A stretch of 64,000 nucleotides of DNA from Phycisphaerae bacterium (GTDB taxonomy: Bacteria > Planctomycetota > Phycisphaerae > Sedimentisphaerales > Anaerohalosphaeraceae), in assembly GCA_012729675.1 (NCBI GenBank), contig JAAYCR010000031.1, positions 1 to 64,000 of the forward strand, read 5' to 3'. Shown piece by piece: positions 8,779 to 15,351 of this stretch (positions are counted from its first letter, which is position 1; each line of letters opens with the position of its first letter). Made by a program: the position numbers and the translations under genes. The notes below the pieces were generated by a model. The model saw only the letters and a program-made list of their open reading frames with translations. It was not told where the DNA came from and did no database searches.

Positions 8779-8835
8779 CACGCCCGAGAGGATTCGAACC
8801 TCTGACCTTCGGTTAGGAAACCGACGCTCTATCCT
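8779..8835. other. attL: 57-bp copy of the tRNA-Arg 3' half
   Basis: This segment matches 15278-15335 (3' half of tRNA-Arg) with one single-base deletion and one substitution, and then diverges. It is the expected left junction of an element integrated into the tRNA gene. The intact tRNA is at the right end, next to the integrase. Confidence 0.85.
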
Positions 8836-8880
8836 TTTAAAGCCCTGAAATAAATAAACTTACAAAAAGTCATAAATACT

Positions 8881-8899
8881 ATTGTCCCCCGCTTTGTCC
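8881..8899. repeat. Left arm-type repeat of the island
   Basis: ATTGTCCCCCGCTTTGTCC lies 46 bp inside attL. A related ATTGTCCCCCACATTGTCC lies in the same orientation inside the right end (15129-15147). The pair could be integrase arm-binding sites. Confidence 0.4.
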
Positions 8900-8916
8900 T
8901 TTTTGTTTTGTTTTTA

Positions 8917-9339
8917 TCAACAAACAATCGGCTCCATGCCGGACTGTTGGGGTGTTTTGGTGACGACCGCCGCAGATAGCACAACCGAAATTTCGGTCGA
9001 GCGAGACTCTGCCGCCTGTCGATGGTCTTTCTCGAAAAGTCCCAGATGTCGTCCCAAAAGCTCCAAAGCACGGCAAGCGGCAGACGGGTTGATTTTCCAC
9101 TGATCGGCAATGGCGCGGAGTTTTTCGACCACCTCGTCGGCGGTTACGCGGCATCGGGTGATCCGTTCCTGCTGAAGTTCAAATAGGCGATGCTGAATAG
9201 CCGGTTTTGACAGGTTTTCCGTTGCGATCTGCCGGGCGGTCTTTTGAGAATACCCCGACCGTATCGCCGCTTGCGTGGCGTTCAAGTCAACCATAAATTC
9301 ATTGCAAAACGTCTCTTGTTTTTTTGTTAATCTGGTCAT
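8917..9339 (-). CDS. Phage terminase small subunit (TerS)
   Basis: A 140-aa protein. The N-terminal half matches the Terminase_2 small subunit family: LTKKQETFCNEFMVDLNATQ, then AAIRSGYSQKTARQIATENL, then a helical oligomerisation segment. TerS binds the packaging (pac/cos) site and hands DNA to the large terminase. No large subunit is present in the element. This supports a satellite that redirects a helper phage's packaging machinery. The ATG lies 2 bases after the stop of the upstream gene, so the two are probably translationally coupled. It is the last gene before attL. Confidence 0.8.
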   Translation of the reverse strand: MTRLTKKQETFCNEFMVDLNATQAAIRSGYSQKTARQIATENLSKPAIQHRLFELQQERITRCRVTADEVVEKLRAIADQWKINPSAACRALELLGRHLGLFEKDHRQAAESRSTEISVVLSAAVVTKTPQQSGMEPIVC

Positions 9340-9341
9340 GG

Positions 9342-9812
9342 TTACTCCGAAAAAAGTTCTTCTGAAAAGTTGACAATGCCCTGATTGGCGTTCAAAAAGC
9401 CGCCGGTTGACGCCAGTTTGTCCGCCGCTGCCTGCGCCGCCTCACGTCGATCAAGATTGTCCCGGCTGTCGGCTACCGCGTCGATCAAAAGCCGGAAAGC
9501 TGCCCCCGAATCGACGAAACGGCCAGCCTTACGACACATTGCGACCGCCTGGGCGAGAGCAACCGCCCCGGCGCGAAACGCCTCTTGAGCCGACTTCGGC
9601 ATTTTTTTGACCCGGCAGGCAACACACTTTCCATCAACCGGCAGAGATGCGCCGCATTGGGCGCACCGGGCAGACTTGAACCGCTCGATCTCGCCGTGAG
9701 CCGACGCAAGCTGCGTTTGCAGGTCGTCGATGATCTTGTCGGCCTTTGCCGCCAGAGTAACTACCGGGGCGGCCTGTTGGTTGAGAATGTCGTGTAAAAT
9801 TTCCGTAATCAT
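9342..9812 (-). CDS. Island protein with a zinc ribbon, function unknown
   Basis: A 156-aa protein. A helical N-terminus (residues about 15-45, ending in GEIERFKSARC) leads into a zinc ribbon with CxxC at CAQC and a second CxxC at CVAC, near residues 50-70. The rest is helical and Ala-rich. It is followed 2 bp later by terS. The zinc ribbon suggests nucleic-acid or protein binding, but I do not recognise the family. Confidence 0.65.
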   Translation of the reverse strand: MITEILHDILNQQAAPVVTLAAKADKIIDDLQTQLASAHGEIERFKSARCAQCGASLPVDGKCVACRVKKMPKSAQEAFRAGAVALAQAVAMCRKAGRFVDSGAAFRLLIDAVADSRDNLDRREAAQAAADKLASTGGFLNANQGIVNFSEELFSE

Positions 9813-9863
9813 GTTTAAATCCTTTTTTTTGTGAAATATGGGTAGTTATTAAGGAAACATAAA

Positions 9864-9901
9864 GAACGACGCGCCGTCTGAACGCCAGAACGACGCGCCG
9901 T
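9864..9901. repeat. Duplicated 14-mer between island genes
   Basis: GAACGACGCGCCGT occurs at 9864-9877 and again at 9888-9901, 24 bp apart. The second copy extends into an imperfect palindrome. It lies between the 9,913 and 9,342 genes and could be a protein-binding site or part of a terminator. Confidence 0.45.
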
Positions 9902-9912
9902 TCGGACCCGTT

Positions 9913-13259: not shown

Positions 13260-13345
13260 CGGCACAGTCCTTTACCAGTCCAAAATTAAGCGCGGCCAGC
13301 CGGTGGACTTTGCCGGTTTTCGCTCCGTCGAGCTATGCCGCGCCC

Positions 13346-13612
13346 TCAAAAATCTGTTACGGCTTCGACTTTTGCAGGTTGGCTTTTTCTCCATCTGCTT
13401 TTTGTTGGTTCCTGTCGCTGCCGTTCGTCGGCTGCTTCTCGTTTGACAGGCGAAAGCGTTTGCCCCACTCCCACTTGAACATCCGCAGCCAGTTTTTGGC
13501 GTACTCGCTCATTGTCCTGGTACTCCTGAATATACTTTTTTGCTCTATCTGAATGTTTTTCTATCTGCAAAAGGACAAACAGAAGGACAAACATTTTGTC
13601 CGAGTTTCGCAA
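13346..13612 (-). CDS. Small charged protein, doubtful
   Basis: At most 88 aa, rich in Lys, Arg and Gln (for example RAKKYIQEYQDNERVRQKLA), with no family resemblance. It lies between the integrase and the winged-helix gene and may be a real small island gene or chance reading. The start is uncertain. Confidence 0.25.
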   Translation of the reverse strand: MRNSDKMFVLLFVLLQIEKHSDRAKKYIQEYQDNERVRQKLAADVQVGVGQTLSPVKREAADERQRQEPTKSRWRKSQPAKVEAVTDF

Positions 13613-13656
13613 GTCCCTTTTTTACCATCGTTTATGCTCCGTGTGCATCGGTTACC

Positions 13657-14976
13657 CTAACCGATGCTCTGTATTTTGGGTTCTTCTTTGACCGTCTCAA
13701 AGTCTGGCAACCCGTCAATAGCCGCCGCCTGTCGGTCGTCGTTGCTGTGTGTATAGAGTGCCAGTGTTAGGTTAATATCGCTATGTCGCATCAAGTCCAT
13801 TGCAACCTTCGGATGAACACCGGATTCAGCTAACAGCGTCCCGAACGTGTGCCTCAAACTGTGAAAATCGGCCTTGCCCCTGTGTGTGACAATCTTCAAA
13901 AAATCGCTGTCATGGCGTGCCTGGTGTTCCTCTGGTTCGTCTTTAACAGCATCAATCCATTGCTGACGGGATTCGGCCAGATCCCTCTGCAAGACCAAAG
14001 CGGCCTTGTCCGGCACATTGAACGCTTTAGCCGTCGGCAGCTTGCTGGACAGGTGCGCCTTGATTCTGTCCATCAGGGCGGCCTTGACGGGCAGCAGGGC
14101 GGGCTTTTTGTTTTTGGTGTGTTCGGCTTTGATCTTGACCGTAAGCCGCTTAAAATCAAAACTGGTGCGTTTCAGAGACGCTATTTCCTCTTTACGCAGC
14201 CCCGTCGATAGTGCCAACTCATAAACCAACGCCCGCTCATGGCCGGAGACATTCCATCGCTCCGGGGCAGTCTCGACATACGCCAGCAGGTAGGTTATTT
14301 CATCGGTGGACAGGGCGCGCCGGGGCGTTTCAACTCGGACGTTTTTCAATTCGAGATGCTGTAAGGGGTCATCGGCCAAACGATCACTCCTGTAAGCCCA
14401 TTTTGTGAATTGTTTACAGGCGCGCAGGTGGTGCAACTTGCCAAACGCCGACGCCTTGCCGATCTGGGTCAACTCGATCTTGTCGGTCTTGGGATTGCGT
14501 TTGTGGACGACCGTTTGCAGCGCGCCGATAATCGTCATTGTCCTGTTGGCAGTGATCTCGGACAACGACCGGAACCCCGCTTCATTGAAAACCCGCTTTG
14601 CCCTCTGGTGGACAAGGGCGGACTGTTTCTGTCCCGTCCCCCCGGCCAGCAGTGCGGCGCGCCAGTCGTCAAGGTGAACCGTCAGAGACGACCTACCCGC
14701 AACCCGTGCCGCTGAAATAAGCCCCCATTGTGCGAAACGTTCTTGCATTTTGGGGGATTGCTGATTTACCCATTCTTGAAGGGCAACCCCCGGCGTTTCG
14801 CCTCCTGATTTGGCGGCGATCAAGTCCCCGATTTTATTGGCAAACGTTTGGGACTGTGGTTTTGATTCAAACAAAGGCAACCTGAACCGCTTGCCCCCTA
14901 CCCTTACATCGCAATACCATTTTAGGGATTCTTGACGTTTTCCGTCGTTTTTGAAATTGTGTTTGTAGATTCTCAT
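13657..14976 (-). CDS. int: Tyrosine recombinase/integrase of the island
   Basis: 439 aa. It has an Arg-binding-type N-terminus, a SAM-like core-binding domain (about 80-200) and a C-terminal catalytic domain. The catalytic residues are visible: Arg in LSTGLRKEEIASLK, His-x-x-Arg in HSLRHTFGTLL, His in MRHSDINLT and the nucleophile Tyr in ALYTHSND. It lies 300 bp from the intact tRNA-Arg and points away from it, as in most tRNA-targeting islands. It should catalyse integration between the phage-type attP and the tRNA 3' end, and excision with a xis partner. Confidence 0.92.
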   Translation of the reverse strand: MRIYKHNFKNDGKRQESLKWYCDVRVGGKRFRLPLFESKPQSQTFANKIGDLIAAKSGGETPGVALQEWVNQQSPKMQERFAQWGLISAARVAGRSSLTVHLDDWRAALLAGGTGQKQSALVHQRAKRVFNEAGFRSLSEITANRTMTIIGALQTVVHKRNPKTDKIELTQIGKASAFGKLHHLRACKQFTKWAYRSDRLADDPLQHLELKNVRVETPRRALSTDEITYLLAYVETAPERWNVSGHERALVYELALSTGLRKEEIASLKRTSFDFKRLTVKIKAEHTKNKKPALLPVKAALMDRIKAHLSSKLPTAKAFNVPDKAALVLQRDLAESRQQWIDAVKDEPEEHQARHDSDFLKIVTHRGKADFHSLRHTFGTLLAESGVHPKVAMDLMRHSDINLTLALYTHSNDDRQAAAIDGLPDFETVKEEPKIQSIG

Positions 14977-14997
14977 GTCCTATCCCTTCCCAAAAAA

Positions 14998-15042
14998 CAA
15001 TCGCCGGGTGTGCCGAACGTGGTGAACGTTCCCCGGCGATTG
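14998..15042. other. Long hairpin between integrase and attR
   Basis: CAATCGCCGGG (14998-15008) pairs perfectly with CCCGGCGATTG (15032-15042). The loop itself contains GAACGT/ACGTTC. It lies in the leader of the integrase gene and may control its expression or be part of the attachment region. Confidence 0.5.
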
Positions 15043-15128
15043 AATACGATAAGTTCAGGTTGTTTTTTCCGTTCGGCACAATCAAATAATACCCCAAAAG
15101 CCGGGGCACGTCAAGGGACAAAATAAAA

Positions 15129-15149
15129 ATTGTCCCCCACATTGTCCCC
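15129..15149. repeat. Right arm-type repeat of the island
   Basis: ATTGTCCCCCACATTGTCCCC matches the repeat at 8881-8899 inside the left end and has the same orientation. Confidence 0.4.
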
Positions 15150-15277
15150 GCAAAAGGGAATTTTCGGGAATCATCGGGAACGACAAGGAAGGGGTATCCG
15201 AGCCGAATTATCGAAAAAAAACCTTGTTATTGGCGCAAAATCGGCGATTTATGGCTGATAAAGGGAATAAATAGAAC

Positions 15278-15351
15278 CACGCCCGAGAGGATTCGAACCT
15301 CTGACCTTCGGTTTAGGAAACCGATGCTCTATCCTGCTGAGCTACGAGCGC
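15278..15351 (-). tRNA. tRNA-Arg (CCT), integration target with attR in its 3' half
   Basis: A 74-nt cloverleaf: acceptor GCGCTCG/CGGGCGT, D-arm GCTCAGCAGGATAGAGC, anticodon loop TTTCCTAA giving CCT, T-loop TTCGAAT. The 3' CCA is not encoded. Its 3' half (15278-15335) is duplicated at 8779-8835 as attL. The island restores the intact gene on this side. Confidence 0.95.

Follow-up and report, generated by a model that had tools for sequence, protein, structure and literature searches.

A small tRNA-Arg island with an isolated terminase small subunit gene in a planctomycete genome, probably a phage satellite

We have analyzed a stretch of 64,000 nucleotides, hereafter called the window, from a Phycisphaerae bacterium (contig JAAYCR010000031.1 of assembly GCA_012729675.1, our C20:1-64000; genome of 2.8 Mb in 96 contigs, 99.9% complete). 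A tRNA-Arg(CCT) gene in it holds a discrete, mobile and tRNA-specific island, which carries genes for integration and replication as well as an isolated gene for a terminase small subunit (TerS). We consider this element to be probably a small integrated phage satellite that is packaged by a helper phage. It is a mobile integrated element lacking genes for particles of its own and carrying a packaging-related gene, and its integration and replication genes are uninterrupted and lie, as do all genes of the island, on the minus strand. Helper packaging through TerS is inferred by analogy with phage-inducible chromosomal islands (PICIs) that bear terS. Features and their coordinates are listed in Table 1.

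The attachment (att) repeat corresponds to the 3′ part of tRNA-Arg(CCT), and about 6.5 kb is enclosed between its two copies, which share 36 identical bp followed by 23 bp at 96% (over about 58 columns, a single mismatch and a single 1-base gap). When the stretch from integrase to tRNA was searched against its own genome, the distal copy ranked third, after the self-match of that stretch and a match at another tRNA-like place. For detection of an empty site, the two island flanks were joined in silico and searched against 36 relatives. In genome G003, which belongs to the same genus, 525 unbroken bases (C174:339-864) matched the joined flanks at 88%, and the gene beyond the distal att, a GFA-type enzyme by eye, directly adjoins an intact tRNA-Arg. 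Since this genome has a contiguous flank and an intact tRNA at the island-free site, the island is an insertion. A first-pass annotation made from the letters of the window had described a 6.5-kb element bounded by a duplicated 3′ half of the tRNA gene and had suggested seeking an empty tRNA-Arg site in related genomes; the measured repeat and the G003 site bear out both. It had also guessed a planctomycete host, in agreement with the integrase, whose nearest relatives with named records belong to Phycisphaerae and Sedimentisphaerales of Planctomycetota.

Table 1. Features of the island and of its insertion site (positions in the window)
Feature	Position	Strand	Evidence
tRNA-Arg(CCT), integration target (attL side)	15277-15352	-	ARAGORN and Rfam; intact tRNA-Arg at G003 empty site
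att repeat, tRNA copy	15278-15335		Direct repeat with 8779-8835
Tyrosine integrase, 439 amino acids (aa)	13657-14976	-	PF00589 3.5e-22, phrog_1 4e-38; 59% identical in G033, same tRNA
int-alpA RNA, leader of winged-helix gene	13269-13343	-	RF02996, 48.4 bits, cut-off 35.8
Third-hairpin loop AGTCCA of int-alpA	13304-13309	-	Pairs with 13277-13282 or 13266-13271
Duplicated loop partner: tail TGGACT, then AGGACT	13266-13282	-	Sequence and duplex test
Winged-helix protein, 224 aa (likely ATG 13259, 222 aa)	12591-13265	-	Weak winged helix-turn-helix matches, PF08461 0.04
xis-like protein, 66 aa	12314-12514	-	Weak excisionase match, phrog_25665 0.13; G027 relative, 41%
AlpA/Xis-like HTH_17 protein, 82 aa	12109-12357	-	PF12728 1e-5, phrog_66 4e-6
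Lambda-O-like replication initiator, 221 aa	11447-12112	-	phrog_270 1e-11, phrog_391 1e-8
Probable origin: four iterons, then A+T-rich stretch, within initiator gene	11761-11861	-	
DnaC-like helicase loader, 263 aa	10750-11541	-	phrog_50 3e-32, IstB 1e-8
Acidic helical orphan protein, 268 aa	9913-10719	-	AlphaFold2 (AF2) model helical, mean predicted local distance difference test (pLDDT) 64.5
Orphan with CxxC zinc-ribbon-like motif, 156 aa	9342-9812	-	Weak, sub-threshold matches only
TerS, 140 aa, without terL	8917-9339	-	PF03592 8e-26, phrog_51 1e-30
att repeat, distal copy	8779-8835		Direct repeat; E=4e-19 vs tRNA region, own genome

The gene set claimed by the annotation, i.e., integrase, two xis/AlpA-like proteins, replication initiator, DnaC-like loader and TerS, was recovered by Pfam and PHROG matches, and judged from these matches the assignment of the last to the TerS family is certain. 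From the end of its gene to the distal att there are 81 bp. A TerS 47% identical to it, in the viral contig L013, lies directly upstream of TerL-like and portal-like genes (TerL, terminase large subunit). In the island itself, no convincing match to TerL, portal, capsid, tail or conjugation genes was obtained with PHROG and Pfam for any of the ten element proteins, in agreement with the annotation, and the general TerL profile phrog_2 found nothing genome-wide in this genome while being positive in 11 of 14 control genomes. The element is thus not a complete prophage, as the searches located neither TerL nor portal, capsid or tail genes between its att copies; a conjugative or mobilizable element was likewise rejected, no relaxase-type or conjugation family being among the Pfam and PHROG matches.

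The annotation had further proposed the two proteins between loader and TerS as interference or packaging factors. No relative of the 268-aa protein was found in phages or viral contigs, including a single-protein scan of the latter, and the 156-aa protein gave only weak, sub-threshold matches. Because neither has relatives in the libraries searched, their roles remain guesses. The single-sequence AF2 model of the 268-aa protein yielded no usable fold match, and its weak match to Packaging_FI (0.025) was not used.

The replication genes point to an origin of the island's own. In phage lambda, the origin consists of iterons within gene O followed by an A+T-rich stretch. The same layout is seen in the window, where the initiator gene contains iterons of about 18 bp, two of them close to the consensus GGTCAAGRATTTAGACCG and two diverged; the two strong copies compare with 0.12 expected under a chance model. 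As in the lambda O/P module, the A+T-rich stretch and then a helicase loader gene follow, but the loader is a DnaC/IstB-like AAA+ protein, not lambda P, and the sequences are remote. Since iterons, A+T-rich stretch and DnaC-like loader are arranged in the lambda manner, the island likely replicates from its own origin. Relatives of the initiator were found in four loci (L066, L099, L273 and L318), and a single-protein scan of viral contigs with the loader found nothing. Cargo of a defence island was considered and rejected: there was no convincing PADLOC match among the element proteins tested, and the mad8 match of the loader (8e-4) is to its ATPase domain.

Three features had escaped the annotation: the iterons within the initiator gene, the winged-helix protein, and the int-alpA RNA which precedes its gene. 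The window RNA resembles Rfam family RF02996 in matching it over its full length with all three model stems and in lying between integrase and AlpA-like genes. Rfam types this family as small RNA (sRNA), whereas in the window and its relatives the RNA directly precedes a start codon. A reading frame of at least 60 codons starts between -7 and +29 bases from the RNA 3′ end in 33 of the 35 loci examined, and ATG-started frames mostly begin about 15-29 bases past it. In the window, the third-hairpin loop AGTCCA forms duplexes of -8.8 kcal/mol with TGGACT (13277-13282) and -8.0 kcal/mol with AGGACT (13266-13271), and AGGACT overlaps the Shine-Dalgarno sequence AAAGGA (13268-13273) of the gene starting with ATG 13259.

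We tested this loop pairing in 32 loci (the window and 31 related ones) by comparing the third-hairpin loop with its own tail and with the region before the start codon. Cognate loop-tail duplexes had a mean of -4.66 kcal/mol against -2.18 after permutation (z -10.3, 0/5000), and duplexes with the pre-start region -5.40 against -3.50 kcal/mol (z -6.9, 0/5000), kinship among the loci being ignored in both cases. In a few rows the automatic procedure failed to call the loop; such failures are expected to weaken the signal and not to create it. The Rfam structure line has three stems and no pseudoknot, so that the complementarity of the loop to tail and ribosome-binding site, seen in the window and relatives, is absent from it. 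In the simplest reading, these data suggest that the loop acts as a switch on translation of the gene that follows; for a family whose only type in Rfam is sRNA, this model proposes a mechanism that can be tested.

Use of int-alpA as a satellite-only marker was rejected since viral contigs L382 and L398 carry it; these two overlap, and L382 also holds a TerL gene, read by eye. A second int-alpA RNA is present in the genome of the window itself (G000:C23:2172-2237, locus L100), followed by a different helix-turn-helix-like gene, by genes resembling xis and rep, and by a primase-like gene of which the contig end leaves only the beginning; L100 is probably a second element of the same class. In L099 (G015:C131), an 805-aa frame (3465-5882) directly behind int-alpA, a T7-type single-subunit RNA polymerase by eye only, has downstream of it an initiator and a loader gene related to those of the window.

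Relatives of the window integrase were found at 79 loci, nearly all planctomycete. The closest parallel is in G033, of the same family, where the same tRNA-Arg next to tatC is occupied by a different island, about 6.4 kb long and having a repeat of its own. It contains a 59% identical integrase, a gene for a winged-helix protein, an AlpA-like gene with 62% identity (the 82-aa protein has relatives at this identity in elements of both G033 and G015), and a helicase/primase-like protein; its int-alpA RNA scores 33.9 bits, below the cut-off, and no TerS or other recognised structural gene was seen in it. No prophage was seen at this att site, which few genomes carry. In a further genome (L139, G023:C49), tRNA-Arg(CCT) and tatC stand 7.8 kb apart, an arrangement that differs from those of the window and G033.

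The kin spans bounded by repeats of tRNA 3′ ends measure 4.4 (L226), 6.5 (L225, which is G033 with the whole tRNA counted), 8.4 (L247), 8.7 (L276), 9.1 (viral contig L306), 9.5 (L256) and 9.6 kb (L238). The annotation had considered the island unusually small; with kin of 4.4-9.6 kb and the 6.1-kb PICMI115, a phage-inducible chromosomal minimalist island (PICMI) of comparable size, this did not hold. Head and packaging genes vary among the kin. None was seen in L225, L226 and L247. In L238, head protease and major capsid protein are fused into one product (phrog_4523 3e-68), and homologues of it are encoded by L276 and L288. The TerS of L306 belongs to a different family (phrog_83 3e-17) and is accompanied by a head protease; TerS and protease are also present in viral contig L310, where no att is visible. 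Two int-alpA loci, L180 and L182, carry TerS, followed in L182 by a major head protein. In G025, another int-alpA element has TerS and then non-TerL genes to the contig end; a protein of this element in the same position as the window winged-helix protein is similar to its C-terminal part (E 0.005). In the att-bounded L238 and L276 with their protease-capsid fusion, no TerL or portal was detected among the proteins scanned, and these two are possible capsid-making satellites.

The recurrence of TerS and capsid genes in kin suggests repeated selection for packaging-related functions, and this bears on another explanation, namely that the island is a self-replicating integrative element spread by, e.g., transformation or general transduction, with TerS a captured DNA-binding regulator. 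The islands of G033 and G028, of the same family, which have integration and replication genes and no recognised packaging gene, would fit this, as would the fact that phrog_51 matches only residues 1-112 of the 140 in the window TerS. We nevertheless regard it as highly improbable, as TerS or capsid families recur in seven kin (L306, L310, L180, L182, L238, L276 and G025) and the matches of the element proteins include no relaxase or conjugation family.

Several observations weigh against a satellite. Neither excision, replication nor packaging has been observed, and to our knowledge no helper phage of this host has been reported. In kin elements, neither seed searches nor PHROG scans detected TerL, the latter covering chosen proteins and not every open reading frame. 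The annotation had suggested looking for the same gene order elsewhere, and related modules do occur in kin; the exact gene set of the window is rare, because a PF03592-type TerS adjoins int-alpA in only 2 of 47 int-alpA-positive genomes (the window and G025) and is absent from all 79 genome loci that have a related integrase. Moreover, L304 has tail genes beside a 43% identical integrase, and L235 (G015:C161) has a 37% identical integrase with Xis, initiator and loader beside a tape-measure gene (phrog_9483 3.5e-41), which points to temperate phage ancestry.

These phage-like loci keep alive the explanation that the island is a temperate prophage remnant, in which the genes from terL to tail were deleted and integrase, early genes and TerS were left by the att site, with no movement of its own and perhaps merely carried along. 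The integrase-xis-initiator-loader order of L235, the larger viral contig L318 with initiator, loader, integrase and TerS of the window families, and the slight divergence of the distal att copy all agree with it. On the other hand, no gene with known relatives in the island is interrupted or truncated, the layout is compact, with all genes on one strand and no debris in the 81 bp between TerS and att, and other small islands with TerL undetected occupy the same tRNA in G033 and different tRNAs elsewhere in the phylum. Because such islands recur, a one-off deletion does not explain them, and we think a remnant unlikely.

The satellite interpretation was compared with known classes. PICIs of Gram-negative bacteria such as EcCICFT073 resemble the island in having flanking att sites, int, an AlpA-like regulator, a replication module, in some cases terS, and no structural or lysis genes (PMC6092414). 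A specific chromosomal att site, one of the PICI criteria of the same study, is evident here from the repeats and the empty site, and PHROG and Pfam scans of the ten proteins showed no structural or lysis gene, TerS being the only phage packaging gene. Further criteria are an att site that prophages do not use, a size of typically about 15 kb, a conserved order of int, regulator (stl/rpr or AlpA/MerR), xis, primase/Rep module and sometimes terS with divergent regulators in the Gram-positive type, PICI-exclusive genes, and induction, packaging and interference that depend on a helper (PMC6092414). The window island has 6.5 kb between att copies, its genes lie on a single strand in a planctomycete host, and, compared with the Gram-positive gene order, int, AlpA-like, rep and terS are present without divergent regulators or primase; replication is of the lambda O/P type with iterons instead of Pri-Rep. 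Its integrase, initiator, loader and TerS families are shared with temperate phages, as found in L304, L235 and L318, and satellite behaviour is here read from genes. Because it deviates in size, layout and gene exclusivity, we describe the island as satellite-like and refrain from classing it with the PICIs. The annotation had taken a gene set with TerS and no TerL as their hallmark; terS is not universal even among known PICIs.

PICMIs of Vibrionaceae have a DUF3987/DUF5906 primase, a fis insertion site and no capsid-remodelling genes (PMC10803314). They are like the window island in their size of about 6 kb, few genes, int, AlpA and replication functions, and terminal direct repeats (PMC10803314). 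The window island differs in lying in a tRNA gene and not at fis, in its O/DnaC-type genes with no primase match, and in carrying TerS. For the kin, a third class is relevant, as L238, L276 and L182 encode capsid proteins, either a protease-capsid fusion or a capsid gene, with TerL and portal undetected, whereas the window island has no capsid gene. Capsid-forming PICIs (cf-PICIs) likewise encode capsid proteins. Most known phage satellites come from Proteobacteria and Firmicutes, and none from Planctomycetota was described in the open-access literature searched. We tentatively suggest, with somewhat less than even confidence, that Planctomycetota have a minimal tRNA-borne satellite lineage of their own, composed of one integrase family, a small replication module and none to a few interchangeable head or packaging parts (either of two unrelated TerS types or the protease-capsid fusion), a part of it being under the int-alpA loop-pairing translational switch.

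If the island is a satellite, its life cycle may be pictured as follows. The integrase inserts the element at the 3′ end of tRNA-Arg(CCT) and leaves the tRNA intact, as the att copies and the G003 site show. In the presence of an active helper phage, the AlpA/Xis-like protein would turn on excision, and the winged-helix protein, under control of the int-alpA leader, possibly joins in this switch. The O-like initiator would bind the iterons that lie within its gene, and the host helicase would be recruited by the DnaC-like loader in lambda style. The island TerS would then mark island DNA and dock it on the TerL and procapsid of the helper, whose particles would carry the island, and the 268-aa and 156-aa proteins may help to redirect capsid or packaging. 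If confirmed, the set of integrase, Xis, initiator, loader and TerS would show how few genes can serve a satellite, and the integrase family, the tRNA att repeats and sometimes int-alpA would provide a searchable marker set for this phylum, of whose phages little is known.

Elsewhere in the window, where no 16S gene lies upstream, tRNA-Ile, tRNA-Ala, 23S and 5S genes stand together (4536-8224), an arrangement with an unlinked 16S.

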